In this document: in pieces, positions 14,201-44,400 of the stretch
Numbering within the stretch: position 1 is the stretch's first letter
How the letters are laid out: each line of letters begins with the position of its first letter
From: Apostichopus japonicus
Lineage: Eukaryota > Echinodermata > Holothuroidea > Aspidochirotida > Stichopodidae
NCBI RefSeq assembly: GCF_037975245.1
Contig: NC_092579.1
Location: forward strand, 21,024,666 to 21,088,665
Direction of reading: 5' to 3'
Length of the DNA: 64,000 nucleotides
The notes under the pieces: generated by a model
The model's database searches: none
What the model was told of the DNA's origin: nothing
Seen by the model: only the letters and a program-made list of their open reading frames with translations
Program-made: the position numbers and the translations under genes

Positions 14201-17200
14201 GTTTCTAAAGGTGGCACTAAACATAATAGACACAGAGAAAGGAATTAACCTGATAAGTATAGTAAATACTTTAGTACAATATCTATTGCTACATTTGTCT
14301 GTGATACCGATGATATTTCATCGGTACTGTCTCTCCTTGGAAACAGCAAAGTAAATACAAAACTCACTGATGTAGTCTTCAGAGATTGGTTTCCGTCTCC
14401 AAAATCCCAATCAAGCAAAAAGATGCTACCCTGGAAGAAGTCGCTAGGATCGTGAATGCTGGCGATGAGTCGTAGGGTCTTGTTGGTGGCAGCATAGCAG
14501 TCCTGATGGCAGACTGTTTCGTTCTGGCTCATTAAGACTTGAATATTTATGTCCTCTGGATCGAAGAAAAATGAGAAAAAGCAGCCTAAAATCAGAAAAT
14601 GTTATTACAGTTTAGAGATGTATTGATGGGAAGTTCAGTGTGCTATGGGTGTGTGGAGAAAGGTAAGTAAAGAATGCTGTACAGTTGATGATGAGTTAAC
14701 AGCATTTAGGGAGGTGGGGGAGACTGGGGAAGGAAGAACAGATATGGTTAATAGAAGCTGATGCCAGCACAGAGTCCTTTTGACATATAAATTCACAACT
14801 TTATTTGAAGTTTTTGTCTAATTGACTAATCAAATTTCATGTCATAAAGACAAAACAAAGTGGCAACATTTGAAAATTTATGAAATGAGCATTCTGCATG
14901 AGGGTTAGGATGTTGGATCTGTTTTATGAATTTGTATCATGAGTACTATTTGATAGCATTTAGTGCAACTTGCTAATTTGGATGTCAAAGAGCACATATA
15001 TATACGATATCATTCCATACTTGACATTCTTTCAAATATCTTGAAAATAAAGAAGATATGTCAAATTATATGTCAATTAAATTTGTAAATGACCCGAGGA
15101 AATTTAAAACAAAAGTCGGAATTGGTGCACACTGAAGTTTTATGAGGGAGTGCATATATATTGTCATATAATTTGATAGGATAATGTAAATTAAACACAT
15201 ATATACTGTATAAATGTAAAAACCTACACATACATTCATGTTCATGTACAGATGGATCCAGCATGATAAATACATCGTCACTGAATGTTGGTCAATGAAA
15301 TTGGAACATTTCTTAACAACTCTGTGTGAGTTTATTAAAATTTCACATTCTGACTCAAGAGTGTACACGTTTGGAGATTTAGCTACAGACGGCAGGAGAA
15401 ACCGTGTGAAAGTCTGATGTAGGAAGCTAAGAAGAAATGGAAAGCAAATGTACAGGATATGCAACAAGGAAATTGTGGTACAACTTATGTAATATTACAC
15501 CTTGAGTTAACCCTATGAAGGTGAACTTGGATGCTCTTAATAAACTTGCAATATACAATAGCACCATTTTATAATCGAAACTTCGAAACTTACAATCTCA
15601 GTGCCAGTAATGAACACATTTCTAACAGTAACACTTAAATGGGTGTTTCCGTTCATACCATTGCTCACCTCATGGCACACTGCAAACACAGGCGTGACTC
15701 CGCCTGAATGTTTACATGTTTTCATCATTCTCACCCAGCAGTTATTATGAAAGAATTTTACACTGTTACCAAAGAAAGTAAACTTGTAACTTGTTGACGC
15801 TAGTAGATTGATGTAGTTTACAGTGAGCAACCAATCGCTACCTGATACTGGTCACACCACCTGTAACCTAGGAGAATGAGCTCTGCTTAGTTACCATGGA
15901 AACTATACATGCACATATGGCGCAAGATACTATCTGATTTACGACATGAAGCCTCAAAAAATAGGTGCGATGTGACTGTACCTGACAGGAAAAATACTTT
16001 TTACTGCCAAGAATATTTACAGAACATACCTATACAGTAAATCCACTTTTAGTATCCGAGAACTCGCGAAGAAGCCATCATTGGCTTATCAAAGTCACAA
16101 GCTGACCGAAGTCAGTCTCTTAGATTCATATTATAACCTCCATGATTATGAATTGTCAATTGTCAACAACTCTGTAACTGGATGACATACATTAATCTTG
16201 GAGTGACTCGAACTCGAGACCTTATGATTGAAAGGCACCGGCGTTAACCATTGAGCTAACACTCCTAGGGGGAGTGAACTAACACTCATGTGGGGGGAGG
16301 GAGAGTGGATGGGGAAGGAGAAGTAGTGTGCTGGGGAAAAGGGGGGGCAAGGCACAGGTGATGGGAAGGTGAATTGAAGAAGAAGCAGTTAGGTTCTAAG
16401 GTGGGAGTAAACAATGGTATCTAAATGTATGCATTAATTAGTTCAGTCCATGATATCAAAGTTTGAGTGCAGTCACAGGTTTGGGAAAAAATACTACAAT
16501 ATAAATATAACCTTGTTCTCACCTACCAAAAAAAAGGCACTATTTTATAAACTACTATAACGGTGAGAGTATAGATGCCAAAGGAAAGTTATGAGGTGGA
16601 TTCAGAGTATAAAGGAAACCTGTATTGATTCACAGGGGATATGTTTTGCTGACTATTGGTGCATCTTTCACAAGTGCTTCCTGCATAGACCACTCATTAC
16701 CGGTTGACCCTCTGTTACATCACGTCAACGACTTCGTGGAATACCGTACACTGTGTAACACAATACTACTACATACTACTTAACTTGCAATTTATGTTAA
16801 ACTTCCAGCCTGACTTGAAATACAATCCAAGGCAAGGCTGCAGAAGGACAGGTATTTGCAAATTAGCACAATTATTCAAACTGAGGTTAATGTATTAACT
16901 GTTGAAAAAATTGGTGGAAATTGTACCAATGAAATGTGGTGAGAAAGAGTTTTGAGGGAAAAGTACACTTGTTCAGGTTAGGCTTGTTATTGGTCTTCTT
17001 AGGTTTGTAATAAATTTAGAGATGCCGGCAAGCAACCCTGCTCTAAGCAGTTGATGTGATATAGGAAAATGCAAGTACCTTCAGGTGATAATTACAGTAT
17101 GATAAAGTATAGCTGTTGCTAAGGGTGTTACAATGCTAATACCACAAACCATTAAACCTTGCAACCTTCATACTGTGTAGAGTGAGGCCAGCCATCCGCT

Positions 17201-20713: not shown

Positions 20714-20724
20714 TGTTTTGTCGC

Positions 20725-20770
20725 CTCATTGAAGGTAGCAGCCACTAAGAGCAGACACTAACAGCAGCCA
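20725..20770 (+). repeat. Left terminal inverted repeat of the giant element
   Basis: 20735-20770, beginning GTAGCAGCCACTAAGAGCAG, matches the reverse complement of 39918-39953 with one mismatch. The 10 bases outside it (CTCATTGAAG) match the other end at about 7 of 10 and abut the 11-bp direct repeat. It is internally repetitive, with GCAGCCACTAA-type units, which weakens the match somewhat as evidence. Confidence 0.7.
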
Positions 20771-20889
20771 CTAAGAAAAAAAGGACAGTAAGACATGACA
20801 CACAGTACTACAACTGCGGTCGTGTGTGTTTGTTATAACCAGTGTTACCAGCGACAGTTGACGAAAAAACGCTAGATTGGCGAAAATAA

Positions 20890-23800
20890 AACCCCAAACG
20901 CGCTGTATATACTTAATGTGTAATGATCAGAAAAATGATTTTTTTCAAAATCGATTAACTTTAGTTATGGAGCCTACTAGGATGTCCGGTTAGCACCATA
21001 TTAAAGTAGACAGGTTCATCTTTCACGTGGTATACCTCTACTATCGGTAACAAAAATGATTTCTTGACCAAAAGTGGCCTTAAAGTTTAAACCCCGATAC
21101 GGACATCACTAAACGCGCTGTATCTAAGGTGTAATGATCTAAAAAAATGATTTTTTTTCCCTTCAAAATCGATTAACTTTAGTTATGGAGCCTACTAGGA
21201 TGTCCGGTTAGCACCACATTAAAGTAGAAAGGTTCCTCTTTTACGTGGTATACCTCCACTATCGGTAACAAAAATGATTTCTTGACCGAAAATGGCCTTA
21301 AAGTTTTAACCCCGATCCGGACATCTCTAAACGCGCTGTATATACGTTATGTGTAATGATCAGAAAAATGGTTAATTTTTATTTTTTTCAAAATCGATTA
21401 ACTTTAGTTATGGAGCCTACTACGATGTCCGGTTAGCACCACATTAAAGTAGAAAGGTTCCTCTTTCACGTGGTATACCTCTACTATCGGTAACAAAAAT
21501 GATTTCGTGACCAAAAGTGACCTTGAAGTTTTAACCCCGATACAGACCCTTCTCTAAACGCGCTGTATATACGTTATGTGTAATGATCAGAAAAATGGTT
21601 AATTTTTATTTTTTTTCAAAATCGATTTACTTTAGTTATGGAGCCTACTAGGATGTCCGGTTAGCACCACATTAAAGTAGACAGGTTCCTCTTTCACGTG
21701 GTATACCTCTACTATCGGTAACAAAAATGATTTCTTGACCAAAAGTGACCTTGAAGTTTTAACCCCGATACAGACCCTTCTCTAAACGCGCTGTATATAC
21801 GTTATGTGTAATGATCAGAAAAATGGTTAATTTTTATTTTTTTCAAAATCGATTTACTTTAGTTATGGAGCCTACTAGGATGTCCGGTTAGCACTACATT
21901 AAAGTAGACAGGTTCCTCTTTCACGTGGTATACCTCTACTATCGGTAACAAAAATGATTTCTTGACCAAAAGTGACCTTGAAGTTTTAACCCCGATACAG
22001 ACCCTTCTCTAAACGCGCTGTATATACGTTATGTGTAATGATCAGAAAAATGGTTAATTTTATTTTTTTCAAAATCGATTAACTTTAGTTATGGAGCCTA
22101 CTAGGATGTCCGGTTAGCACCACATTAAAGTAGACAGGTTCATCTTTTACGTGGTATTCCTCTACTATCGGTAACAAAAATGATTTCTTGACCAAAAATG
22201 GCCTTAAAGTTTTAACCCCGATCCGGACATCTCTAAACGCGATGTATATACGTAATGTGTAATGATCAGAAAAATGGTTAATTTTATTTTTTTCAAAATC
22301 GATTAACTTTAGTTATGGAGCCTACTAGGATGTCCGGTTAGCACCACATTAAAGTAGACAGGTTCCTCTTTCACGTGGTATACCTCTACTATCGGTAACA
22401 AAAATGATTTCTTGACCAAAAATGGCCTTAAAGTTTTAACCCCGATCCGGACATCTCTAAACGCGCTGTATATACGTTATGTGTAATGATCAGAAAAATT
22501 TATGATTTTTATTTTTTTCAAAATCGATTAACTTTAGTTATGGAGCCTACTAGGATGCCCGGTTAGCACCACATTAAAGTAGACAGATTCATCTTTCACG
22601 TGATATACCTCTACTATCGGTAACAAAAATGATTTCTTGACCAAAAGTGGCCTTAAAGTTTTAACCCCGCTACGGACATCTCTAAACGCGCTGTATATAC
22701 GTAATGTGTAATGATCAGAAAAATGGTTAATTTTTATTTTTTTCAAAATCGATTTACTTTAGTTATGGAGCCTACTGGCATGTCCGGTTAGCACCACATT
22801 AAAGTAGACAGGTTCCTCTTTTACGTGGTATACCTCTACTATCGGTAACAAAAATGATTTCTTGACCAAAAGTGACCTTGAATTTTTAACCCCGATACAG
22901 ACCCTTCTCTAAACGCGCTGTATATACGTTATGTGTAATGATCAGAAAAATGGTTAATTTTTATTTTTTTCAAAATCGATTAACTTTAGTTATGGAGCCT
23001 ACTAGGATGTCCGGTTAGCACCACATTAAAGTAGACAGGTTCCTCTTTTACGTGGTATACCTCTACTATCGGTAACAAAAATGATTTCTTGACCAAAAGT
23101 GACCTTGAATTTTTAACCCCGATACAGACCCTTCTCTAAACGCGCTGTATATACGTTATGTGTAATGATCAGAAAAATGGTTAATTTTTATTTTTTTCAA
23201 AATCGATTAACTTTAGTTATGGAGCCTACTACGATGTCCGGTTAGCACCACATTAAAGTAGACAGGTTCCTCTTTCACGTGGTATACCTCTACTATCGGT
23301 AACAAAAATGATTTCTTGACCAAAAGTGACCTTGAAGTTTTAACCCCGATACAGACCCTTCTCTAAACGCGCTGTATATACGTTATGTGTAATGATCAGA
23401 GAAATGGTTAATTTTATTTTTTTCAAAATCGATTAACTTTAGTTATGGAGCCTACTAGGATGTCCGGTTAGCACCACATTAAAGTAGACAGGTTCATCTT
23501 TTACGTGGTATACCTCTACTATCGGTAACAAAAATGATTTCTTGACCAAAAATGGCCTTAAAGTTTTAACCCCGATCCGGACATCTCTAAACGCGCTGTA
23601 TATACGTTATGTGTAATGATCAGAAAAATGGTTAATTTTATTTTTTTTCAAAATCGATTAACTTTAGTTATGGAGCCTACTAGGATGTCCGGTTAGCACC
23701 ACATTAAAGTAGACAGGTTCATCTTTTACGTGGTATTCCTCTGCTATCGGTAACAAAAATGATTTCTTGACGAAAAATGGCCTTAAAGTTTTAACCCCGA

Positions 23801-26800
23801 TCCGGACATCTCTAAACGCGCTGTATATACGTAATGTGTAATGATCAGAAAAATGGTTAATTTTTATTTTTTTCAAAATCGATTTACTTTAGTTATGGAG
23901 CCTACTAGGATGTCCGGTAAGCACCACATTAAAGTAGAAAGGTTCCTCTTTTACGTGGTATACCTCTACTATCGGTAACAAAAATGATTTCTTGACCAAA
24001 AGTGACCTTGAAGTTTTAACCCCGATACAGACCCTTCTCTAAACGCGCTGTATATACGTAATGTGTAATGATCAGAAAAATGGTTAATTTTTATTTTTTT
24101 CAAAATCGATTTACTTTAGTTATGGAGCCTACTAGGATGTCCGGTTAGCACCACATTAAAGTAGAAAGGTTCCTCTTTCACGTGGTATACCTCTACTATC
24201 GGTAACAAAAATGATTTCTTGACCAAAAATGGCCTTAAAGTTTTAACCCCGATCCGGACATCTCTAAACGCGCTGTATATACGTTATGTGTAATGATCAG
24301 AAAAATGGTTAATTTTATTTTTTTCAAAATCGATTAACTTTAGTTATGGAGCCTACTAGGATGTCCGGTTAGCACCACATTAAAGTAGACAGGTTCATCT
24401 TTTACGTGGTATTCCTCTACTATCGGTAACAAAAATGATTTCTTGACCAAAAATGGCCTTAAAGTTTTAACCCCGATCCGGACATCTCTAAACGCGCTGT
24501 ATATACGTAATGTGTAATGATCAGAAAAATGGTTAATTTTTATTTTTTTCAAAATCGATTTACTTTAGTTATGGAGCCTACTAGGATGTCCGGTTAGCAC
24601 CACATTAAAGTAGACAGGTTCATCTTTTACGTGGTATTCCTCTACTATCGGTAACAAAAATGATTTCTTGACCAAAAGTGACCTTGAAGTTTTAACCCCG
24701 ATACAGACCCTTCTCTAAACGCGCTGTATATACGTAATGTGTAATGATCAGAAAAATGGTTAATTTTTATTTTTTGCAAAATCGATTTACTTTAGTTATG
24801 GAGCCTACTAGGATGTCCGGTTAGCACCACATTAAAGTAGAAAGGTTCCTCTTTCACGTGGTATACCTCTACTATCGGTAACAAAAATGATTTCTTGACC
24901 AAAAATGGCCTTAAAGTTTTAACCCCGATCCGGACATCTCTAAACGCGCTGTATATACGTTATGTGTAATGATCAGAAAAATGGTTAATTTTATTTTTTT
25001 CAAAATCGATTAACTTTAGTTATGGAGCCTACTAGGATGTCCGGTTAGCACCACATTAAAGTAGACAGGTTCATCTTTTACGTGGTATTCCTCTACTATC
25101 GGTAACAAAAATGATTTCTTGACCAAAAATGGCCTTAAAGTTTTAACCCCGATCCGGACATCTCTAAACGCGCTGTATATACGTAATGTGTAATGATCAG
25201 AAAAATGGTTAATTTTTATTTTTTTCAAAATCGATTTACTTTAGTTATGGAGCCTACTAGGATGTCCGGTTAGCACCACATTAAAGTAGACAGGTTCATC
25301 TTTTACGTGGTATTCCTCTACTATCGGTAACAAAAATGATTTCTTGACCAAAAGTGACCTTGAAGTTTTAACCCCGATACAGACCCTTCTCTAAACGCGC
25401 TGTATATACGTAATGTGTAATGATCAGAAAAATGGTTAATTTTTATTTTTTGCAAAATCGATTTACTTTAGTTATGGAGCCTACTAGGATGTCCGGTTAG
25501 CACCACATTAAAGTAGAAAGGTTCCTCTTTTACGTGGTATACCTCTACTATCGGTAACAAAAATGATTTCTTGACCAAAAGTGACCTTGAAGTTTTAACC
25601 CCGATACAGACCCTTCTCTAAACGCGCTGTATATACGTTATGTGTAATGATCAGAAAAATGGTTAATTTTTATTTTTTTCAAAATCGATTTACTTTAGTT
25701 ATGGAGCCTACTAGGATGTCCGGTTAGCACCACATTAAAGTAGACAGGTTCCTCTTTTACGTGGTATACCTCTACTATCGGTAACAAAAATGATTTCTTG
25801 ACCAAAAGTGACCTTGAATTTTTAACCCCGATACGGACCCTTCTCTAAACGCGCTGTATATACGTTATGTGTAATGATCAGAAAAATGGTTAATTTTATT
25901 TTTTTCAAAATCGATTAACTTTAGTTATGGAGCCTACTTGGATGTCCGGTTAGCACCACATTAAAGTAGACAGGTTCATCTTTCACGTGGTATACCTCTA
26001 CTATCGGTAACAAAAATGATTTCTTGACCAAAAGTGACCTTGAATTTTAACCCCGATACAGACCCTTCTCTAAACACGCTGTATATGCGTAATGTGTAAT
26101 GATCAGAAAAATGGTTAATTTTATTTTTTTTTAAAATCGATTAACTTTAGTTATGGAGCCTACTAGGATGTCCGGTTAGCACCACATTAAAGTAGAAAGG
26201 TTCCTCTCTCACGTGGTATACCTCTACTATCGGTAACAAAAATGATTTCTTGACCAAAAATGACCTTAAAGTTTTAACTCCGATACGGACCACTCTCTAA
26301 ACGCGCTGTATATATACGTTATGTGTAATGATCAGAATTTCTTTTTTTTCTTCAAAATCGTTTAACTTTAGTTATGGAGCCTACTAGGATGTCCGAATAG
26401 GACCACATTAAAGTAGAAAGGTTCCTCTCTCACATGGTATACCTCTTCTATCGGTAACAAAAATGATTTCTTGACCAAAAATGACCTTAAAGTTTTAACT
26501 CCGATACGGACCACTCTCTAAACGCGCTGTATATACGTTATGTGTAATGATCAGAATTTCCTTTTTTTTATTCAAAATCGTTTAACTTTAGTTATGGAGC
26601 CTACTAGGATGTCCGAATAGGACCACATTAAAGTAGAAAGGTTCCTCTCTCACATGGTATACCTCTCCTATCGGTAACAAAAATGATTTCTTGACCAAAA
26701 ATGACCTTAAAGTTTTAACTCCGATACGGACCACTCTCTAAACGCGCTGTATATATACGTTATGTGTAATGATCAGAATTTCTTTTTTTTCTTCAAAATC

Positions 26801-27225
26801 GTTTAACTTTAGTTATGGAGCCTACTAGGATGTCCGAATAGGACCACATTAAAGTAGAAAGGTTCCTCTCTCACATGGTATACCTCTTCTATCGGTAACA
26901 AAAATGATTTCTTGACCAAAAATGACCTTAAAGTTTTAACTCCGATACGGACCACTCTCTAAACGCGCTGTATATACGTTATGTGTAATGATCAGAATTT
27001 CTTTTTTTTCTTCAAAATCGTTTAACTTTAGTTATGGAGCCTACTAGGATGTCCGAATAGGACCACATTAAAGTGGAAAGGTTCCTCTTTCACGTGGTAT
27101 TCCTCTACTATCGGTAACAAAAATGATTTCTTGACCAAAAGTGGCCTTAAAGTTTTAACCCTGATACGGACATCTCTAAACGCGCTGTATATACGTTATG
27201 TGTAATGATCCAAAAAATGATTAAT
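20890..27225 (-). repeat. Left satellite array, ~225-bp unit, about 28 tandem copies
   Basis: Each unit carries GATTAACTTTAGTTATGGAG, CCTACTAGGATGTCCGGTTA, CACGTGGTATACCTCTACTA, TCGGTAACAAAAATGATTTC, TTGACCAAAA, ACCCCGAT and AACGCGCTGTATATACGT. Spacing is close to 225. A three-unit higher-order repeat of 676 bp is evident: identical stretches start at about 23664, 24340 and 25016. The four units nearest the centre (about 26330-27070) form a subfamily with CCGAATAGGACCACATT in place of CCGGTTAGCACCACATT. The 70-residue frame in many units begins at TTG rather than ATG and is not treated as a gene. Confidence 0.97.
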
Positions 27226-27850
27226 TCCTGTGTGGGCAATTGGGCCTTTGAGGTTGCTGCATGGGTCCCGTTACAGTTAAAATATGAAGTCGTTGGTATT
27301 TTTGGATACCGCAATGTCCAATAGGGCCAACACCTCTAAACGAATTATCCTGCTTTTTGTTAACATAATCAAATCACGTGTGGGCCATGGGCCCTTTAGG
27401 CCATGGTAAAGGATAAATTTGTAGTCATAGGTTTTTCTTTTTTTAATACCCGACAACCTTATGGTCCAGCGCCAATAAAAAGAAATCATACTGCTCTCTT
27501 TTCACATGATTAAATCATGTGTGGGCCACGGGCCCTTTCTGGCTGCTGTATGGGTCCTGGTACATCATAAAGTTGTTGTTATTAGTATTTTTGGATACCC
27601 CAATTTCCAAAGGGTCCAATGCCACTTTAAGAATCACCCTGCTCTCATTTCACATAAATGAATCATATGTGGGCCACAGGCCTTTTTTGGTTGCTGCCTG
27701 CATGGGCCCATGTACATCATAAAGTTGCTGTAATTAGTATTTTGGGACACCCCAATGTTTAACTGGTGTACCGCAAAATGAATTATCCTTGTCTCTTTTC
27801 GCATGATTAATACCATTTTGATGGGCCCTTCTGCAGGGCCCGTCACAAGG
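27226..27850 (+). repeat. ~145-bp tandem repeat, left arm of the core palindrome
   Basis: GTGTGGGC or a close variant recurs at about 27230, 27378, 27519 and 27667, followed by GGGCCC, TGCTG, TGGGTCC and a segment with TTGGATACC. A degenerate fifth copy ends near 27850. The first two units are the inverted counterpart of 28410-28575: for example CCAATAGGGCCAACACCTCT on this side and its reverse complement around 28470-28490. Confidence 0.85.
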
Positions 27851-28240
27851 TACAATTACTTTCATTGCTATGGTTCTAAAAGTATCTTACTTTGAGTTTT
27901 ATCCAGCGCTTTTGCCTTGCGTCTTTCACATGATTAAATCAACATTTGAGCCCCCTATTTTAATTGAAGGCACATTTAGACTACATACACGCACATTGTG
28001 TGGCACGGCAGCAACACATAACCTTGAATCCTGGTCATAAACGGACATAAGCTGCCCATTAAACCCTCTGTCTCTTTTCAAATCTTCTGGGTTCCCGGTC
28101 CAGTTGAGTATCGAATCGATGCAGACTGGGTTGAAAGTAAACGCGGGCCAAGTGCAGTGCAATGCAATAAACTAGGCTCACATCACTGCAAGATGCGAGC
28201 CATCATAATGACGTCACAGGTCGATTTACTGCAAATTTAT
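27851..28240. other. Unique centre of the giant inverted repeat
   Basis: About 390 bases that do not belong to either tandem family. A 78-codon ATG frame on the minus strand (28162-27926) lies here; I do not recognise its product and it has no visible domain. It may be chance or a remnant of element coding sequence. Confidence 0.5.
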
Positions 28241-28612
28241 CCTCTACCATGGCCCAGACAACCTCAAGGGCCCATGGCCCACGCGTGATTTGATCATGTG
28301 CAAAGACACAAGGATTATTATAGTTGCATTGGACCCTTTATACATTGGAGAAACCAAAAAATACCATCTACGACTTTTATCTGTACCGGGCCCCAGGCAA
28401 CAGCCATAAAGTGCCCATGGCCCACACATGATTTGATTATGTTAACAAAATCAGGATAATTCTTTTAGAGGTGTTGGCCCTATTGGACATTGCGGTATCT
28501 AAAAATACCAACGACTTCATTTTAACTGTAACGGGGCCCATGCAGCAACCTCAAAGGCCCAATTGCCCACACAGGAATTAATCATTTTTTGGATCATTAC
28601 ACATAACGTATA
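28241..28612 (-). repeat. ~145-bp tandem repeat, right arm of the core palindrome
   Basis: Two to three units in inverted orientation (GCCCATGGCCCACRC-type motifs at about 28268 and 28413, and GGCCCAATTGCCCACACAGG near 28553). They run into the start of a satellite unit (ATCATTTTTTGGATCATTAC, then ACATAACGTATATA), mirroring the left junction at 27190-27240. The satellite unit is cut off at about 28612. Confidence 0.85.
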
Positions 28613-28802
28613 TATATGTTGAATTTGACATGTTGATAGACGTAATGACATATTGGTATTTTGTCTCGATATGTTCATATGGAATTGTAACATGTTGATA
28701 TCGAATTGGACATATATATTAACTTGGACACTCCACTTTCTTTTTCGACATTTATGGAACGTTTGGCTCTCCGTACTCTTCGACTGTCTTTGTGTTATGT
28801 TT

Positions 28803-29144
28803 TCACTTAGTTTTGTATGATCTGATCATCTGATCACTGTATCGTCTCTGTATTCCAATCAAGTCTTGGTAATAAACAGAAAGTAATTCATCAATTCTTT
28901 TCATGTTGCGATCACTCAGCTGATTAGATTTAAGAACTTTCATTCTCGATTCAGCATGACCAATTGTTCGTGGTACCGAAACTTTACGAACGTTTCTGGT
29001 AATACTATTTATATCTACATCTATATTAATATGTCGGTTCAAGTCACCGAGAAGTAACCCAGACCAAAAAGCAGATGACGGTAATAAAACAGTCTCCAAT
29101 TCTTTCATAAGTACTGGAGAGTAAAATAGATTGGGATCATACAT
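28803..29144 (-). pseudogene. Transposase-like ORF fragment (113 codons)
   Basis: A minus-strand frame starts MYDPNLFYSPVLMKELETVL and continues with SAFWSGLLLGDLNRHIN and a basic, helical-looking C-terminus. The pattern of NPxxFYSP, xxxPxxxLWSG and LGDL resembles the C-terminal part of transposon-encoded proteins seen in many invertebrate genomes, but I cannot name the family. Once the nested element is discounted, the frame continues upstream only about a dozen codons past the insertion point before an in-frame stop (TAG). It is therefore a remnant, or one exon of a larger gene. It has no link to the flanking host genes. Confidence 0.45.
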
Positions 29145-29157
29145 TTGTTCTTGTATT

Positions 29158-30163
29158 CACTGGCGGATCCAAGGGGGGGGGGGCCAAGGGGGGCCATGCC
29201 CCCCCCAAAGGTGAGCAAAAAAGTGTTTCCGAACATCCGCTAAATCGTATGATTGGAAATTTAAAAAATCGAGAGGAATAGCAGTGGTAGACTAGTCTAA
29301 ACCTTTTTGTTTTCTGGTTTAAAATTAAATGCAGAGCTCCCAACTGACCCGCGATTCGCGGGAATTAGACCCGCAGTCTAACACCCAAACCCGCTGACCC
29401 GCACAAGCGTGCGAAAAAACCGCATTGTAATTGTCAAGTATACATAAAAAAATTTGCATCGAATTTTGACTTAGCAACCATCATTTCTTTAGCATTTAGC
29501 ATAATAGAGTATAAAACCTCCTTTACAGCATCATTTGAACCTTTGAATTGGGGCGAGCAGCGAACATTTTCATGCCACGGGAAAGAATGAATTATCACCT
29601 ACTATTCAATTTATTGATGTTACACAAAAAAAAATGCATATTTCTCAGAAAATTTTGGGTGACAAAAGCCTTTCTAAGTGCCACCATTTTACATGTAGGC
29701 ATCACCAGGATTCCAAAAAAATTCAATAGGGGAGGGGGACACCCCCTCCCCTTATACCCCTCCCCCAGGACGGCGATTCGTGGCATGGACCAGCATTTGC
29801 CTTCTCAAGAGTTGGGAGCTATGTAAATGTATGAGCATGAGGATTTACAGTTTAACACCATTTTGCAGTTACAGGCTGGTTGTAAGAAATTTATAACCTA
29901 TGAGAAATAAAATTTCTTGAGAAAGATGATCCCAACTTTCTTTTATAAATATTTTAGAAAATTACACCTGGGAAACATTTTTTTTAGAAGTAAATTAACA
30001 TCACCATTGTACACTTTTGTCGCACCAAATTGCATCTGAGGGCATTCAGCAATAGAAAATTTTCCAAAGGGGAGGGGGGCACCCCATCCCCTTAGACCCC
30101 TCCCCCATATCACTCTAATGCCACTTTGGCCCCTCCCAAACAGAGGCCCTGGATCCGCCAGTG
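29158..30163. mobile_element. Nested hAT-type non-autonomous element, 1006 bp
   Basis: The ends are inverted repeats: CACTGGCGGATCCA at the left and its exact reverse complement at the right. They are flanked by a perfect 8-bp direct repeat CTTGTATT (29150-29157 and 30164-30171), the target length typical of the hAT superfamily. There is no transposase frame. The interior has G/C-homopolymer-rich ends and two copies of a GGGGAGGGGGxCACCCC...CCCCTCCCCC block about 340 bp apart (about 29729 and 30069). It is inserted just upstream of the transposase-like fragment. Confidence 0.88.
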
Positions 30164-30704
30164 CTTGTATTTGATATGCTACTGGATGTAACTAAGTGTG
30201 AATATAGGGTTTGTCATGTCTCATAGAGAGTCTGTTTAACTTATAAGACGTTTTATTGTTTTGATAATATTACAAATTATACTTTTACAAAGAGGTAATG
30301 AGAAGAGAGATTAATATCGTCAGTCATTCTTTAGAACCTCAAGATCATACTGCAGGATGATTCGTACTAGTTAACAAAAGTATCCGATCGTGTGTTAAAT
30401 GTACAATGTATTCCACACAGACTTCATGTTGGTTATATGTGGTCTTATGGTACGATGTGAAGATTTTCTTGTCATGCCTCAAAAAGGTAAATGACTAACT
30501 TCTTTTGAAAGAGAATACAGTACGACAAAAAGTTATCAATTTTATTTGATTACATATTTTGTCTATATAGTCTGATATTTCGGTACAGGTGGAGCACAGA
30601 AGTAGATTTGATACAAACAGTAGCTATGGAGCACAAATATTCAGTTTGTTCCGACAAGAAGGACAAAATTGAATCATAATTAAATCTAATCAAGAAATCA
30701 GTTT

Positions 30705-33700
30705 TGTTATAGGGGTCTGTATCGGGGTTAAAACTTTAAGGCCATTTTTGGTCAAGAAATCATTTTTGTTACCGATAGAAGAGGTATACCACGTGAAAGA
30801 GGAACCTTTCTACTTTAATGTGGTGCTAACCGGACATCCTAGTAGGCTCCATAACTAAAGTTAATCGATTTTGAAAAAAAAAAAATTAACCATTTTTCTG
30901 ATCATTACACATTAGGTATATACAGCGCGTTTAGAGAAGGGTCCGGATCGGGGTTAAAACTTTAAGGCCATTTTTGGTCAAGAAATCATTTTTGTTACCG
31001 ATAGTAGAGGAATACCACGTAAAAGAGGAACCTTTCTACTTTAATATGGTGGTAACCGGACATCCTAGTAGGCTCCATAACTAAAGTAAATCGATTTTGA
31101 AAAAAAAAAAAATCATAAATTTTTCTGATCATTACACATAACGTATATACAGCGCGTTTAGAGATGTCCGTATCGGGGTTAAAACTTCAAGGTCACTTTT
31201 GGTCAAGAAATCATTTTTGTTACCGATAGTAGAGGTATACCACGTAAAAGAGGAACCTTTCTACTTTAATATGGTGCTAACCGGACATCCTAGTAGGCTC
31301 CATAACTAAAGTTAATCGATTTTGAAAAAAAAAAAATTAACCATTTTTCTGATCATTACACATTACGTATATACAGCGCGTTTAGAGAAGGGTCCGGATC
31401 GGGGTTAAAACTTTAAGGCCATTTTTGGTCAAGAAATCATTTTTGTTACCGATAGTAGAGGAATACCACGTAAAAGAGGAACCTTTCTACTTTAATATGG
31501 TGGTAACCGGACATCCTAGTAGGCTCCATAACTAAAGTAAATCGATTTTGAAAAAAAAAAAATCATAAATTTTTCTGATCATTACACATAACGTATATAC
31601 AGCGCGTTTAGAGATGTCCGTATCGGGGTTAAAACTTCAAGGTCACTTTTGGTCAAGAAATCATTTTTGTTACCGATAGTAGAGGTATACCACGTAAAAG
31701 AGGAACCTTTCTACTTTAATATGGTGCTAACCGGACATCCTAGTAGGCTCCATAACTAAAGTTAATCGATTTTGAAAAAAATAAAATTAACCATTTTTCT
31801 GATCATTACACATAACGTATATACAGCGCGTTTAGAGAAGGGTCTGTTTCCGGGTTAAAATTTCAAGGTCACTTTTGGTCAAGAAATCATTTTTGTTACC
31901 GATAGTAGAGGTATACCACATAAAAGAGGAACCTTTCTACTTTAATGTGGTGCTAACTGGGCATCCTAGTAGGCTCCATAACTAAAGTTAATCGATTTTG
32001 AAAAAAATAAAAATTAACCATTTTTCTGATCATTACACATTACGTATATACAGCGCGTTTAGAGATGTCCGTATCGGGGTTAAAACTTTAAGGCCACTTT
32101 TGGTCAAGAAATCATTTTTGTTACCGATAGTAGAGGTATATCACGTGAAAGATGAACCTTTCTACTTCAGTGTGGTGCTAACCGGACAAACTAGTAGGCT
32201 CCATAACTAAAGTTAATCGATTTTGAAAAAAATAAAAATCATAAATTTTTCTGATCATTACACATAACGTATATACTGCGCGTTTAGAGAAGGGTCTGTA
32301 TCGGGGTTAAAACTTTAAGGCCATTTTTGGTCAAGAAACCATTTTTGTTACCGATAGTAGAGGTATACCACGTGAAAGATGAACCTGTCTACTTTAATGT
32401 GGTGCTAACCGGACATGCCAGTAGGCTCCATAACTAAAGTTAATCGATTTTGAAAAAATAAAAATTAACCATTTTCTGATCATTACACATTACGTATATA
32501 CAGCGCGTTTAGAGATGTCCGTATCGGGGTTAAAACTTTAAGGGAATTTTTGGTCAAGAAATCATTTTTGTTACCGATAGTAGAGGCATACCACGTAAAA
32601 GATGAACCTTTCTACTTTAATGTGGTGCTAACCGGACATCCTAGTAGGCTCCATAACTAAAGTTAATCGATTTTGAAAAAAATAAAATTAACCATTTTTC
32701 TGATCATTACACATAACGTATATACAGCGCGTTTAGAGAAGGGTCTGTATCGGGGTTAAAACTTCAAGGTCACTTTTGGTCAAGAAATCATTTTTGTTAC
32801 CGATAGTAGAGGTATACCACGTAAAAGATGAACCTGTCTACTTTAATGTGGTGCTAACCGGGCATCCTAGTAGGCTCCATAACTAAAGTTAATCGATTTT
32901 GAAAAAATAAAAATTAACCATTTTTCTGATCATTACACATAACGTATATACAGCACGTTTAGAGATGTCCGTATCGGGGTTAAAACTTTAAGGCCATTTT
33001 TGGTCAAGAAATCATTTTTGTTACCGATAGTAGAGGTATACCACGTGAAAGATGAACCTGTCTACTTTAATGTGGTGCTAACCGGACATGCCAGTAGGCT
33101 CCATAACTAAAGTTAATCGATTTTGAAAAAAATAAAAATCATAAATTTATCTGATCATTACACATAACGTATATACAGCGCGTTAAGAGATGTCCGTATC
33201 GGGGTTAAAACTTTAAGGCCATTTTTGGTCAAGAAACCATTTTTGTTACCGATAGTAGAGGTATACCACGTGAAAGATGAACCTGTCTACTTTAATGTGG
33301 TGCTATAACCGGACATGCCAGTAGGCTCCATAACTAAAGTTAATCGATTTTGAAAAAATAAAAATTAACCATTTTTCTGATCATTACACATTACGTATAT
33401 ACAGCGCGTTTAGAGATGTCCGTATCGGGGTTAAAACTTTAAGGCCATTTTTGGTCAAGAAATCATTTTTGTTACCGATAGTAGAGGTATACCACGTGAA
33501 AGATGAACCTGTCTACTTTAATGTGGTGCTAACCGGACATGTCAGTAGGCTCCATAACTAAAGTTAATCGATTTTGAAAAAAATTAAAATTAACCATTTT
33601 TCTGATCATTACACACTACGTATATACAGCGCGTTTAGAGATGTCCGTATCGGGGTTAAAACTTTAAGGCCATTTTTGGTCAAGAAATCATTTTTGTTAC

Positions 33701-36700
33701 CGATAATAGAGGTCTATCACGTGAAAGATGAACCTGTCTACTTTAATGTGGTGCTAACCGGACATGCCAGTAGGCTCCATAACTAAAGTTAATCGATTTT
33801 GAAAAAAATTAAAATTAACCATTTTTCTGATCATTACACACTACGTATATACAGCGCGTTTAGAGATGTCCGTATCGGGGTTAAAACTTTAAGGCCATTT
33901 TTGGTCAAGAAATCATTTTTGTTACCGATAATAGAGGTCTATCACGTGAAAGATGAACCTGTCTACTTTAATGTGGTGCTAACCGGACATGCCAGTAGGC
34001 TCCTTAACTAAAGTTAATCGATTTTGAAAAAATAAAAATTAACCATTTTTCTGATCATTACACATAACGTATATACAGCACGTTTAGAGATGTCGGTATC
34101 GGGGTTAAAACTTTAAGGCCACTTTTGGTCAAGAAATCATTTTTGTTACCGATAGTAGAGGTATACCACGTGAAAGATGAACCTGTCTACTTTAATGTGG
34201 TGCTAACCGGACATGCCAGTAGGCTCCATAACTAAAGTTAATCGATTTTGAAAAAAATAAAAATCATAAATTTATCTGATCATTACACATAACGTATATA
34301 CAGCGCGTTTAGAGATGTCCGTATCGGGGTTAAAACTTTAAGGCCATTTTTGGTCAAGAAACCATTTTTGTTACCGATAGTAGAGGTATACCACGTGAAA
34401 GATGAACCTGTCTACTTTAATGTGGTGCTAACCGGACATGCCAGTAGGCTCCATAACTAAAGTTAATCGATTTTGAAAAAATAAAAATTAACCATTTTCT
34501 GATCATTACACATTACGTATATACAGCGCGTTTAGAGATGTCCGTATCGGGGTTAAAACTTTAAGGCCATTTTTGGTCAAGAAATCATTTTTGTTACCGA
34601 TAGTAGAGGTATACCACGTGAAAGATGAACCTGTCTACTTTAATGTGGTGCTAACCGGACATGTCAGTAGGCTCCATAACTAAAGTTAATCGATTTTGAA
34701 AAAAATTAAAATTAACCATTTTTCTGATCATTACACACTACGTATATACAGCGCGTTTAGAGATGTCCGTATCGGGGTTAAAACTTTAAGGCCATTTTTG
34801 GTCAAGAAATCATTTTTGTTACCGATAGTAGAGGTATACCACGTAAAAGAGGAACCTTTCTACTTTAATGTGGTGCTAACCGGACATCCTAGTAGGCTCC
34901 ATAACTAAAGTTAATCGATTTTGAAAAAAATAAAATTAACCATTTTTCTGATCATTACACATAACGTATATACAGCGCGTTTAGAGAAGGGTCTGTATCG
35001 GGGTTAAAACTTCAAGGTCACTTTTGGTCAAGAAATCATTTTTGTTACCGATAGTAGAGGAATACCACGTAAAAGAGGAACCTTTCTACTTTAATGTGGT
35101 GCTAACCGGGCATCCTAGTAGGCTCCATAACTAAAGTTAATCGATTTTGAAAAAATAAAAATTAACCATTTTTCTGATCATTACACATAACGTATATACA
35201 GCACGTTTAGAGATGTCCGTATCGGGGTTAAAACTTTAAGGCCACTTTTGGTCAAGAAATCATTTTTGTTACCGATAGTAGAGTTATATCACGTGAAAGA
35301 TGAACCTGTCTACTTTAATGTGGTGCTAACCGGACATCCTAGTAGGCTCCATAACTAAAGTTAATCGATTTTGAAAAAAATAAAAATCATAAATTTTTCT
35401 GATCATTACACATAACGTATATACAGCGCGTTTAGAGATGTCCGTATCGAGGTTAAAACTTCAAGGTCACTTTTGGTCAAAAAATCAGTTTTGTTACCGA
35501 TAGTAGAGGTATACCAGGTGAAAGATGAACCTGTCTACTTTAATGTGATGCTAACCGGACATGCCAGTAGGCTCCATAACTAAAGTTAATCGATTTTGAA
35601 AAAATAAAAATTAACCATTTTTCTGATCATTACACATTACGTATATACAGCGCGTTTAGAGATGTCCGTATCGGGGTTAAAACTTTAAGGCCATTTTTGG
35701 TCAAGAAATCATTTTTGTTACCGATAGTAGAGGAATACCACGTGAAAGATGAACCTGTCTACTTTAATGTGGTGCTAACCGGACATGCCAGTAGGCTCCA
35801 TAACTAAAGTTAATCGATTTTGAAAAAAATAAAAATCATAAATTTATCTGATCATTACACATAACGTATATACAGCGCGTTTAGAGATGTCCGTATCGGG
35901 GTTAAAACTTTAAGGCCATTTTTGGTCAAGAAACCATTTTGTTACCGATAGTAGAGGTATACCACGTGAAAGATGAACCTGTCTACTTTAATGTGGTGCT
36001 AACCGGACATGTCAGTAGGCTCCATAACTAAAGTTAATCGATTTTGAAAAAAATTAAAATTAACCATTTTTCTGATCATTACACACTACGTATATACAGC
36101 GCGTTTAGAGATGTCCGTATCGGGGTTAAAACTTTAAGGCCATTTTTGGTCAAGAAATCATTTTTGTTACCGATAGTAGAGGTCTATCACGTGAAAGATG
36201 AACCTGTCTACTTTAATGTGGTGCTAACCGGACATGTCAGTAGGCTCCATAACTAAAGTTAATCGATTTTGAAACAAATTAAAATTAACCATTTTTCTGA
36301 TCATTACACACTACGTATATACAGCGCGTTTAGAGATGTCCGGATCGGGGTTAAAACTTTAAGGCCATTTTTGGTCAAGAAATCATTTTTGTTACCGATA
36401 GTAGAGGTATACCACGTGAAAGAGGAACCTGTCTACTTTAATGTGGTGCTAACCGGACATCCTAGTAGGCTCCATAACTAAAGTTAATCGATTTTGAAAA
36501 AAATAAAATTAACCATTTTTCTGATCATTACACACTACGTATATACAGCGCGTTTAGAGATGTCCGTATCGGGGTTAAAACTTTAAGGCCATTTTTGGTC
36601 AAGAAATCATTTTTGTTACCGATAGTAGAGGTCTATCACGTGAAAGATGAACCTGTCTACTTTAATGTGGTGCTAACCGGACATGCCAGTAGGCTCCATA

Positions 36701-39370
36701 ACTAAAGTTAATCGATTTTGAAAAAAATAAAAATTAACCATTTTTCTGATCATTACACACTACGTATATACAGCGCGTTTAGAGATGTCCGTATCGGGGT
36801 TAAAACTTTAAGGCCATTTTTGGTCAAGAAATCATTTTTGTTACCGATAATAGAGGTCTATCACGTGAAAGATGAACCTGTCTACTTTTATGTGGTGCTA
36901 ACCGGACATGCCAGTAGGCTCCATAACTAAAGTTAATCGATTTTGAAGGGGAAAAAAATTTGGGATCATTACATGTTACGTATATACAGCGCGTTTAGAG
37001 ATGTCCGTATCGGGGTTAAAACTTTAAGGCCATTTTTGGTCAAGAAATCATTTTTGTTACCGATAGTAAATGTATACCACGTGAAAGAGGAACCATTCTA
37101 CTTTAATGTGGTGCTAACCGGACATGCCAGTAGGCTCCATAACTAAAGTTAATCGATTTTGAAGAGAAAAAATCATTTTTTGGATCATTACACATTAGAT
37201 ATACAACGCGTTTAGAGATGTCCGTATCGGGGTTAAAACTTTAAGGCCATTTTTGGTCAAGAAATCATTTTTGTTACCGATAGTAGAGGTATATCACGTG
37301 AAAGATGAACCTGTCTACTTTAATGTGGTGCTAACCAGACATGTCAGTAGGCTCCATAACTAAAGTTAATCGATTTTGAAGGGGAAAAAAATTTGGGATC
37401 ATTACATGTTACGTATATACAGCGCGTTTAGAGATGTCCGTATCGGGTTTAAAACTTTGAGGCCATTTTTGGTCAAGAAATCATTTTTGTTACCGACAGT
37501 AGATGTATACCACGTGAAAGAGGAACCATTCTACTTGAATGTGGTGCTAACCGGACATGCCAGTAGGCTCCATAACTAAAGTTAATCGATTTTGAAGAAA
37601 AAAAAATCATTTTTTGGATCATTACACATTAGATATACAACGCGTTTAGAGATGTCCGTATCGGGGTTAAAACTTTAAGGCCACTTTTGGTCAAGAAATC
37701 ATTTTTGTTACCGATAGTAGAGGTACATCACGTGAAACATGAACCTTTCTACATTAATGTGGTCCTATTCGGACATCCTAGTAGGCTCCATAACTAAAGT
37801 TAATCGATTTTGAAAAAATAAAAATTAACCATTTTTCTTATCATTACACATTACGTATATACAGCCCGTTTAGAGATGTCCGTATCGGGGTTAAAACTTT
37901 AAGGCCACTTTTGGTCAAGAAATTATTTTTGTTACCGATAGTAGAGGTATATCACGTGAAAGATGAACCTGTCTACTTTAATGTGGTGCTAACCGGACAT
38001 GCCAGTAGGCTCCATAACTAAAGTTAATCGATTTTGAAAAAATAAAAATTAACCATTTCTCTGATCATTACACACTTCGTATATACAGCGCGTTTAGAGA
38101 TGTCCGTATCGGGGTTAAAACTTTAAGGGAATTTTTGGTCAAGAAATCATTTTTGTTACCGATAGTAGAGGTATACCACGTGAAAGAGGAACCTTTTTAC
38201 TTTAATTTGGTCTTTTTCGGACATCCTAGTAGGCTCCATAACTAAAGTTAATCGATTTTGAAAAAAAACAATCATTTTTTGGATCATTACACATTAGATA
38301 TACAGCGCGTTTAGAGATGTCCGTATCGGGGTTAAAACTTTAAGGCCACTTTTGGTCAAGAAATCATTTTTGTTACCGATAGTAGAGGTATACCACGTGA
38401 AAGAGGAACCTTTCTACTTTAGTGTGGTGCTAACCGGACATGCCAGTAGGCTCCATAACTAAAGTTAATCGATTTTGAAAAAAATAAAAATTAACCATTT
38501 TTCTGATCATTACACATTACGTATATACAGCGCGTTTAGAGATGTCCGTATCGGGGTTAAAACTTTAAGGCCATTTTTGGTCAAGAAACCATTTTTGTTA
38601 CCGATAGTAGAGGTATACCACGTGAAAGATGAACCTGTCTACTTTAATGTGGTGCTAACCGGACATGCCAGTAGGCTCCATAACTAAAGTTAATCGATTT
38701 TGAAAAAATAAAAATTAACCATTTTCTGATCATTACACATTACGTATATACAGCGCGTTTAGAGATGTCCGTATCGGGGTTAAAACTTTAAGGGAATTTT
38801 TGGTCAAGAAATCATTTTTGTTACCGATAGTAGAGGTATACCACGTGAAAGAGGAACCTTTTTACTTTAATTTGGTCTTTTTCGGACATCCTAGTAGGCT
38901 CCATAACTAAAGTTAATCGATTTTGAAAAAAAACAATCATTTTTTGGATCATTACACATTAGATATACAGCGCGTTTAGAGATGTCCGTATCGGGGTTAA
39001 AACTTTAAGGCCACTTTTGGTCAAGAAATCATTTTTGTTACCGATAGTAGAGGTATACCACGTGAAAGAGGAACCTTTCTACTTTAGTGTGGTGCTAACC
39101 AGACATGCCAGTATAGGCTCCATAACTAAAATTAATCGATTTTGAAGAAGAAGAAAAAAATATCAATATTTTAAAACGTTTAGGCCACTTTTGGTCAAAA
39201 AAATCGGTTTTGTTACCCATAGTAGGTATTACACGTGAAAGAAGAAATTGTTTTCTTTGATTTGATGCTAACCGGACCTCCTAACTAGGTCGATAACTCA
39301 AATTAACCGATTTTGAAATAATAATACGTTTGGATCATAACACATTACCGCGCGTTTCGAGCTAATTTTC
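30705..39370 (+). repeat. Right satellite array, ~225-bp unit, about 38 tandem copies, inverted relative to the left array
   Basis: Units are the reverse complement of the left array (for example ATAACTAAAGTTAATCGATT and CACGTGAAAGA). Local higher-order repeats are visible: a two-unit period of ~451 bp at about 30930-31830; a block at 33137 recurring at about 34258 and 35826; a two-unit period of ~433 bp around 36945-37620; a three-unit period around 38090-38960. The last copy (about 39150-39370) is strongly decayed, as expected at an array edge. The 70-residue frames again start at TTG. Confidence 0.97.
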
Positions 39371-39917
39371 CCATTTGCATCGCACTCCTGTTATGATCGA
39401 ACGGTTTGTAGCCATCGAATTTCAATAAATCAAAGTGTTACTGGCTGTTTTTTCATACCACTTGTAAGAGGAATAACTTAACATCGTCATTGTACCCCTC
39501 TTGACTGTTGCATATTCTCATAAATTAATTGTTTAGACATTTGAAAAAAAAAGAAAAAAAATGGTATAAAAATTGCCGCCATTTACGCCTTTCTCCACAA
39601 GATTTGGTAGGATCACAAGTTTCAGTTCAATATGGATGCAGATTTCGTCCACCATTAAATTCCAAAATTATATTACATGAAAGAGCAACAACTCATCTCT
39701 CATATGGTGCAATTATTGGCATTTTACAGTATTCATAGCGTTAATTATTATCACTTTAAAACAGGTACGAAAAAGTAGCAGTCTTGTTATTGTCCGCTAA
39801 TTTAGGCTGCCCTTAGTGGCTGCTGGGGATCAACTTTCCCGCCACAGCGTACCCAGCGCTCGTCACAGTGTACAAACATCAGTGGCCAACGGCGTGTAAC
39901 GTTGATGTATACACTAT
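39371..39917. other. Non-repetitive right shoulder inside the giant element
   Basis: About 550 bases between the satellite edge and the right terminal repeat. A 69-codon frame (39529-39738) lies here but starts at a non-ATG codon and has no recognised similarity. GGCTGC-CTTAGTGGCTGCTG near 39805 is a degenerate copy of the terminal-repeat motif. No gene is supported. Confidence 0.5.
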
Positions 39918-39965
39918 TGGCTGCTGTTAGTGGCTGCTCTTAGTGGCTGCTACGTTCAAACAGGT
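39918..39965 (-). repeat. Right terminal inverted repeat of the giant element
   Basis: Reverse-complement partner of 20735-20770 (35 of 36 positions over 39918-39953), extended weakly by GTTCAAACAG. It is followed at once by the 11-bp direct repeat at 39966-39976. It contains tandem TTAGTGGCTGCT-type units. Confidence 0.7.
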
Positions 39966-39976
39966 TGTTTTGTCGC

Positions 39977-41439: not shown

Positions 41440-44400
41440 TTGTTGTTTGGTCTACTTGTTCATATGGGTTTTCATCACTTTTTTCATGATTTGTTTCAGA
41501 TTAAAGAGAGTAGATATCCTGATGCCGTACAAATTCTTTCTCAGCAATTACAAAATCATCCAAAGGTAAAGTATTTTAGAAGTTCTTCTACATTAATACC
41601 TGAATGTAACTATCATTATGTGTGTGTGATGATAAAGATCTTTAATCTTAACTGAATATTTGAAGCGAAACAGACAAATTGTCTTTCTTCATCGACAAAT
41701 CTCTCCCTGGGACAAATCAGAAAGTACCGTGTGTAAAACACATTAAAAAACTGCAATTTTACAAAGGTGTTTCATTCAACCTCAAAAATTTCCTGATCGA
41801 CCACTTGAATTTGACGAACTGCTAGGGCAAATTGAAAAAAGTAAATCAACTTTTATTTGAGCCCATTTATTACTATTAGGACAAAAATGTTTTGCTAGCA
41901 TGAGAAAAGTCAATTTTGTTGAAATAAAGCCTTATAACTGTTCACACATATTCAAGTAAACGTTTGTTTTTGTCTTCCAGTCAAGGGGAGCTCTCTCTCT
42001 GCTTGGGTATTGTTATTTCCATATCCAAGATTACATAAATGCTTCGGACTGCTATGAACAACTGGTACAACTTCATCCAGAGGAGGAAGATTACAAGCTT
42101 TATTATGCTCAATCCCTCTACCACGCTTGTATGTACCCAGAGGCTATGAAAGCTACCTTTCAAATTGAAAATCCAGAGTACCAGCCCAAGGTGAGTATTA
42201 TTGTCATTTCCAAGGAATTACAAGAAGAATTAAGTTCCAAATTTCTTTGTAGATATATGAAGTGGTTTTGTCCCTTTGCAGAGGAAATTATATGTGTATG
42301 TATAAAGTTTTCTGTGTTGAAGCAATGTGGCAGATATTTTAGTTTGATGACAAATGCTAATTTTTCATTTCCTTCAAACCAAACGGTAGCAGCTGGAACC
42401 AGTTGTCAATTAGCTAAAATACATTTTGCCAAGTTTTCACTCAGTTGGGATGTTCGATGTTGATCATGGGTAAACCCAAGCAATTGTGAAGGCCTAACTC
42501 CTTCTTTAATAATCAAATGAAATCTTCATCTGTAATTCGGTCTTGATTCAGACGTGTAAGTTTATTAAATTGGTCTTTATTCAGATGATTGGTTCCCTCT
42601 ATTTTTATTGTTTTTTTCTGGGAAGCTCTACACTGGTTAAATGTTTATATTTTAGGGTATTATTGATACTGTCAGTGCAAGAATTGATCTTTAACTGTAC
42701 TCTCTGGTTCTGTATGCTAATTACAGAAGGCATCATTTTGTTGGTTTTTGTTCACTTTTCAGATCACTAAATTACAAGCTGCTGTTAAATATGGTGAAGA
42801 AGACTTGCCAGCTGCTAAGGTATGTAAAACCATGAAGGAAAAGCAAAAAAATAAATTATGGAATTTTGAAAATTGATTACCATATAGATGGTTGTTTTTG
42901 CATTTTGCAACCCACTTTGTCACTAACCATGATGAACTATGATATTGCATAACTATCACACAGGCTATAAACTACATAAATCTTTTTAGTCTTTAAAGTC
43001 TTTACAATGTGAGTCCTGAATTTCTGAAATAAAGTTTTATACTTTATTTACAGGAATAATCCAGTGGCAGATAATCACTGTTCACTGAAAAACCTCATCT
43101 CAATATCTTGTTCCTAACAGGAGTTATGGTTGATTGCTTGTGACCTATTTTGACCCTATTAAACCCTCAATTATTCCAGGGAGTTGATCACAGTGATGTC
43201 ATTATGAAAAAATGCTGTTCTAAAGCTTTACCTTCCTATTGTAATCTTCTTGATGATTATCCAGGGAGTTGTTATGGAATACTTCCTGATTTATCCTAGA
43301 AATATGGCAAATTTGGAGTGTGTTTGAATAGCTGCCAATGATCTCTGTATTTGGAAGTTCATCAATATGCAACTTTTTTTCGTTAAAATATGATTTTACT
43401 TTGTGAGTGAGTGAGTGAGTGAGTGAGTGAGTGAGTGAGTGAGAGTGAGTGAGTGAGTGAGTGAGTCAGTGAGTGAGTGAGAGAGAGAAAGAGAGTGAGT
43501 GAGTGAGTGAGTGAGTGAGTGAGTGAGAGTGAGTGAGTGAGTGAGTGAGTGAGAGGGAGAGAGTGAGTGAGTGAGTGAGAGTGAGTGAGTGAGTGAGTCA
43601 GTGAGTGAGTGAGTGAGAGAGAGAAAGAGAGTGAGTGAGTGAGTGAGTGAGAGTGAGTGAGTGAGTGAGTGAGTGAGTGAGTGAGTGAGTGAGAGTGAGT
43701 GAGTGAGTGAGTGAGTGAGTGAGTGAGTGAGAGGGAGAGAGTGAGTGAGTGAGTGAGTGAGTGAGTGAGTGAGTGAGTGAGTGAGTGAGTGAGTGAGAGT
43801 GAGTGAGTGAGTCAGTGAGTGAGTGAGAGAGAGAAAGAGAGTGAGTGAGTGAGTGAGTGAGTGAGTGAGTGAGTGAGTGAGTGAGTGAGTGAGTGAGTGA
43901 GTGAGTGAGTGAGTGAGTGAGTGAGTGAGTGAGTGAGTGAGTGAGTGAGTGAGTGAGAGTGAGTGAGTGAGTGAGTGAGTCAGTGAGTGAGTGAGAGAGA
44001 GAAAGAGAGTGAGTGAGTGAGTCAGTGAGTGAGTGAGTCAGTCAGTGAGTCAGTCAGTGAGTCAGTCAGTGAGTCAGTCAGTGAGAGAGTGAGTCAGTGA
44101 GTCAGTCACCCAGTTAAAACTGATAACGAAAAACAAGAAACATCAGTTCAAGTGATGTGTTGACATCATTCAGTCTGCTGTTGCCAAATGCATTAATAAC
44201 AAAATACCATTTAATCTGAAAATCCATATCTTTGCAAATACAACATCCTATGAGGGTGTGGTTTTGACCTGCAGATACAGACATTTTCCAGCCAGTTTTA
44301 TTTAGCAATCATCCTCAGGTACTGGAATATTCCCTCTTTAACCCTTTATGTTCTCTTTTAAAATATACAAACAGAGCTTAGTGGAACAATGCCCCTCTGA

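Follow-up and report, generated by a model that had tools for sequence, protein, structure and literature searches.

The interval 20725-39965 (19,241 bp) of the DNA studied here, a stretch of 64,000 nucleotides referred to below as the window, is best read as a non-autonomous DNA transposon of the foldback type, inserted as one copy, with arms that would have grown largely separately and probably mostly after insertion. Judged from the sequence, this reading was given a probability of about two in three (0.68). It is carried by the inverted termini, the exact 11-bp direct repeat that adjoins them, the mirror arms and the inner junction that these arms share, which together point to a single TIR-bounded insertion. 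The direct repeats lie just outside the inserted interval, at 20714-20724 and 39966-39976. The features are, from left to right:

20714-20724, plus strand: left 11-bp direct repeat TGTTTTGTCGC, a putative target-site duplication (exact-match scan, chance estimates)
20725-20773, plus strand: left terminus (inverted repeat of 13-bp units at 20729-20773, 42/45)
20774-20895, plus strand: left subterminal stretch, 122 bp (alignment to its right counterpart no better than shuffles; no masked-BLAST match)
20896-27226, plus strand: left satellite array, unit of about 225 bp, 28 copies (tandem-repeat finding, self-alignment)
27227-27575, plus strand: left inner inverted repeat, degenerate tandem units of about 140-150 bp (the inverted match starts at 27188, within the satellite)
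27576-28231, plus strand: central loop of 656 bp, enclosed by the two halves of the best inner alignment
28232-28575, minus strand: right inner inverted repeat (inverted alignment)
28576-28614, minus strand: satellite stub, 39 bp, oriented as the right arm (satellite comparison)
28615-30689, no strand: right-arm interruption made up of unassigned DNA (about 1 kb) and a nested element, without a protein relative
29158-30163, no strand: presumed hAT-like non-autonomous nested element, 1,006 bp (14-bp inverted ends and 8-bp direct repeat)
30690-39357, minus strand: right satellite array (TRF 30715-39146, 37.7 copies)
39358-39914, minus strand: right subterminal stretch, about 557 bp, with an extra terminus motif at 39805-39824
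39915-39965, minus strand: right terminus (45-bp inverted repeat at 39915-39959)
39966-39976, plus strand: right 11-bp direct repeat (exact-match scan)

An earlier, sequence-only reading of this DNA had noticed an 11-bp direct repeat bracketing the termini. This was borne out, as TGTTTTGTCGC is present exactly at both coordinates and zero further exact copies were found in the window. When one mismatch was allowed, one more copy appeared within the window (55847-55857), and at least three matches with at most one mismatch were also obtained in 5 of 100 shuffles. Two 20-bp flanks had at least 11 bases in common in 70 of 1,000,000 random non-repetitive window pairs, and a Markov simulation of 11-base sharing between 20-bp flanks gave 19 of 400,000 pairs. 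A cruder run, in which overlapping and low-complexity flank pairs were counted as well, gave 99 of 200,000. The chance of such a repeat had previously been put at the order of 1 in a few thousand; its rarity is upheld, and the estimate was cautious, since the measured frequency is about 7 in 100,000. An alternative boundary was considered, in which both ends of the element start with CCT and the 11-bp duplication carries one mismatch; it is indistinguishable from an exact duplication followed by unlike outermost bases.

Judged on the length of the duplication alone, the superfamily is most likely Mutator-like: Mutator-like elements have been accepted with 8-11-bp duplications (PMC3903597), and the 11 bp found here fall in this range and differ from the 7 bp of the Galileo-type P superfamily. 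The element could instead be a foldback of another superfamily, for example of the P superfamily like Galileo, because foldback structure arises in unrelated superfamilies according to the excerpted accounts of PMC4079207 and PMC3573991. However, the duplications of Galileo are described there as 7 bp (PMC3573991) against 11 bp here, and such an affiliation is considered unlikely.

The two termini are identical at 42 of 45 positions (20729-20773 versus 39959-39915, BLAST E 1.4e-11) and are composed of a 13-bp unit, present in about three copies in the left terminus and 2.6 copies in the right one. At the extreme ends, over the outermost 10-12 bases, the two sides show little agreement. The 36-bp inverted termini (35/36) of the sequence-only reading were recovered as a core nested within this 45-bp inverted repeat, set back 10 bp from the direct repeat on the left and 12 bp from that on the right. 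A 20-base terminus motif (at most 3 mismatches) matched five times in the window and 0 times in each of 100 shuffles; four of the matches fall within the 45-bp termini, and the fifth, at 39805-39824, lies some 140 bp inward of the right end. A looser 12-base motif gave eight matches, two of them elsewhere (27535 and 49205), these strays being near shuffle level. Homology between the arms was not found to continue from the terminus inward. A loose alignment of the subterminal stretches (122 versus about 557 bp; the compared pieces also held about 45-57 bp of satellite) looked suggestive and was rejected, since 74 of 1000 shuffles scored at least as high, and masked BLAST returned no match between the two. 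In the satellite unit no terminus-like sequence was detected, the comparison giving only short weak matches of the subterminal stretch (best E 0.007).

Between these stretches lie two satellite arrays with a unit of about 225 bp in opposite orientation, as had been claimed (20896-27226 with 28.0 copies versus 30715-39146 with 37.7 copies). The right array is edged by a 20-bp satellite fragment at 30690-30709 and by degenerate outer units that extend to about 39348-39357. The arms measure about 6.9 kb on the left and 11.7 kb on the right. The outer ends of the arrays lie at nearby unit phases, 1 and 18 of 224, a weak agreement that is expected in about 15% of cases by chance. Elsewhere in the window the satellite was not found, save for a 19-bp low-complexity match. 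Towards the centre the satellite passes into a second tandem repeat, which is degenerate and has a unit of about 140-150 bp. That this second repeat is also inverted, another claim of the earlier reading, is seen in the match of 27188-27575 to 28614-28232, which is unbroken across the satellite junction; its first 60 bases are identical, and in its better part 202 of 211 columns are. The presence of the same satellite/inner-repeat junction on both sides is as expected if the arms represent one duplicated unit. The small centre proposed together with it is not simply small, as 28615-30689 interrupts the right arm and holds a nested element. The inverted arms contain tandem repeats, and the element is flanked by a putative target-site duplication in the form of the exact 11-bp direct repeat, in the one copy seen. 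The element is built like a foldback and probably works like one, although the non-aligning subterminal stretches make it a probable rather than a certain member of that group.

The unlike stretches that separate the termini from the arrays, the satellite unit without terminus-like sequence and the absence of the satellite from the remaining window (the 19-bp match aside) would also suit a different history, namely that an ordinary short-TIR DNA transposon landed here and that an inverted satellite block was inserted or captured later as cargo, never having served as arms. This is doubtful, however, for the arrays mirror each other around one centre, with the same inner junction and a nearby outer phase. 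It is very improbable that there is no mobile unit at all, and that an inverted satellite array happens to be enclosed by two short inverted repeats together with a direct repeat of 11 bp. This view could draw on the single copy observed and on the differences in the outermost bases of the termini, but a coincidence would be needed of a terminus match with E 1.4e-11 and a well-placed 11-bp repeat (70/1,000,000).

The history of the arms was studied in 65 of the 67 monomers, the statistics leaving out the last left unit, which is truncated, and a 380-bp degenerate piece that is outermost on the right. Mean identity between monomers was 93.5% for pairs in the left arm, 93.0% for pairs in the right arm and 92.5% for pairs from different arms. 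For 54 of the 65 the best match was situated in the same arm, where about half would be expected (0 of 2000 label permutations reached as high a value). On the monomer tree the arm label changed 10 times, whereas 1000 shuffles averaged 21.4 changes and never gave fewer than 14. Gaps aside, 11 pairs of identical monomers were found, every pair within one arm and its members non-adjacent. Several clades of the tree contain units of both arms. Sliding the left arm 13-15 units inward on the right one gave an identity of 94.1-94.3%, versus 92.0% unshifted; the order of the monomers as a mirrored record of history was set aside, the gain being ascribed to the degeneration of the outer right-arm units. 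It is hardly credible that a chimeric or misjoined read created the mirror structure during assembly: long near-identical arrays do assemble badly, the unit numbers are uncertain and the identical non-adjacent monomers could be assembly duplicates, but a chimera of the foldback kind would be expected to mirror itself almost perfectly and to take in the flanks, whereas here the arms differ in length and sequence (about 89-94% identity in 61 of 747 inverted alignments listed) and the flanks beyond the termini are without inverted similarity in a masked search.

The monomer patterns suggest that the arms of the foldback element lengthened largely independently, either starting from variants that they had in common or with a degree of exchange between them. 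The clades that mix both arms imply that the arms did not expand in full isolation, or that the expansion did not entirely postdate their origin, and the within-arm similarity, the identical non-adjacent monomers and the unequal unit numbers fit growth in place. Much of this growth probably followed the insertion, and the ancestor that moved may have been much less than 19 kb long. According to a review, DNA transposition is inefficient above a cargo of about 6 kb, yet far larger cargoes have been moved (PMC6431247). The sequence-only reading had proposed, on condition that this is one mobile unit, an unusually large element in which the satellite expanded within the arms. A TIR-bounded insertion with a duplication and foldback-like arms agrees with this proposal; mobility at the present size does not follow, as the monomer patterns fit growth in place. 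A foldback family of an echinoderm-like genome that moves as units of about 20 kb with whole satellite arrays as arms, in which exchange keeps the arms alike and which disperses the satellite into gene-rich DNA, is conceivable but improbable.

The events could have taken the following course. A transposase made elsewhere would bind the repeated 13-bp motifs and excise the element, at that stage a smaller ancestor whose arms held few satellite units. This ancestor would land at the present site, where joining at a staggered cut would give rise to the 11-bp duplication. Unequal exchange and gene conversion would then lengthen each arm largely on its own, and the right arm would later be interrupted and receive the nested, presumably hAT-like, element. 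Should the arms of other copies consist of one to a few units, this would show that foldback arms seed satellites repeatedly in evolution, and the expansion would become datable relative to the insertion.

The nested element of 1,006 bp (29158-30163) has 14-bp inverted ends, CACTGGCGGATCCA, and is flanked by the 8-bp direct repeat CTTGTATT at 29150-29157 and 30164-30171; on these grounds we take it to be hAT-like. The rest of the interruption (28615-29157 and 30164-30689) amounts to about 1 kb. It holds, on the minus strand at 28806-29156, an open frame of 117 aa, the longest in the whole foldback element, for which zero relatives were found at E 0.001 or better. None of the six stop-to-stop frames of at least 80 aa within the element (0 of 6) had a Pfam match at the curated cut-off. 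One match below the cut-off (RgpF, E 0.037) was taken as chance. Among the same 6 of 6 frames no MULE or other transposase was recognized, which implies that the element is non-autonomous as it stands. Rfam gave no match in the window at gathering score, and ARAGORN no tRNA. Viral contigs and prokaryote genome contigs contained 0 exact matches to a satellite string of 23 bases, and the same result was obtained in viral and prokaryote collections for terminus strings of 25 and 26 bases. For an animal sequence such an empty result is expected, and it is silent on dispersal in animal genomes.

To the left of the element minus-strand frames are present, one with a sub-threshold PKD match, and to the right plus-strand frames with sub-threshold TPR matches, which are presumably part of a TTC30/IFT70 gene. 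Amid the latter a 4-bp GTGA array of 178.5 copies extends over 704 bp (43403-44106). Further to the right a frame for an MFS transporter (57973-59217) is 56% identical to a protein of Holothuria leucospilota and 50% to one of Apostichopus japonicus, two unnamed proteins being closer. As judged from this one protein, whose nearest named relatives are thus from sea cucumbers, the host is probably an echinoderm; a second search gave four hits, all unnamed. Other repeats in the window are a dispersed inverted pair, 16060-16265 and 47367-47570, with 72% identity over 212 columns, perhaps a SINE despite the absence of an ARAGORN tRNA from the window, and a tandem array of 6 copies of a 105-bp unit at 808-1432, for which higher periods of 205 and 310 bp score equally.

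Among foldback elements the TU elements of the sea urchin are built of subunits about 15 bp long and make duplications of 8 bp; they resemble the present element in their echinoderm host, which is the probable host group here too, but differ from it in these short subunits and in the length of the duplication. Galileo, a member of the P superfamily in Drosophila, is described in the excerpted account as having long arms, in group F with tandem units of about 210 bp, the number of which differs between the two arms of one copy (PMC3573991). It differs from the present element in that its units, as described there, number at most three, its arms extend to about 1.26 kb, its duplications are 7 bp and its transposase is known (PMC3573991). 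In Tm1, a Mutator/Foldback element of root-knot nematodes, the termini contain tandem units of 13-15 bp, unlike short motifs lie outside the inverted part of both ends, and one described copy carries a nested foreign element (PMC3169594). These features resemble the present ones. Its duplications, however, usually measure 9 bp (45 of 53 within 8-10 bp), and satellite arms with a unit of about 225 bp are not described for Tm1 in the portion of that paper available (PMC3169594).

The sequence-only reading had held that known foldbacks are much smaller in both subunit and total size. For the subunits this does not hold, given the units of about 220 bp in Tetris (PMC4079207) and of about 210 bp in Galileo F (PMC3573991), but the total size found here does exceed those given in these excerpted descriptions. 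Among the literature titles and starts of abstracts listed, in some cases the best 12-15 of 34-169 papers and a scope that lay outside most subscription journals, no satellite-armed foldback near 20 kb, and none from a sea cucumber, was encountered; the sea urchin is named among foldback hosts in the available part of PMC4079207. The same part describes Tetris of Drosophila virilis as a non-autonomous foldback whose outer arm domain consists of tandem units of about 220 bp. These units have grown into satellite arrays that reach 66 copies, and on DNA fibres a long array was observed between two flanking domains (PMC4079207). Compared by description, Tetris and the present element are alike in being non-autonomous, in the arm units of about 220 bp, in the unequal unit numbers and in the growth of the arrays (PMC4079207). 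They differ in that the arms of Tetris, as described there, measure at most 1,735 bp and its duplications 8-10 bp, whereas the arms here measure about 6.9 and 11.7 kb and the duplication 11 bp, and in that Tetris has an outer flanking domain as long as 866 bp where the present element has a terminus of 45 bp. The kind of element is thus already known, with Tetris as a close precedent, and size and probably host group are what is new here. The element would then represent a snapshot of a satellite growing within the arms of a DNA transposon beside genes, in a group far from Drosophila.
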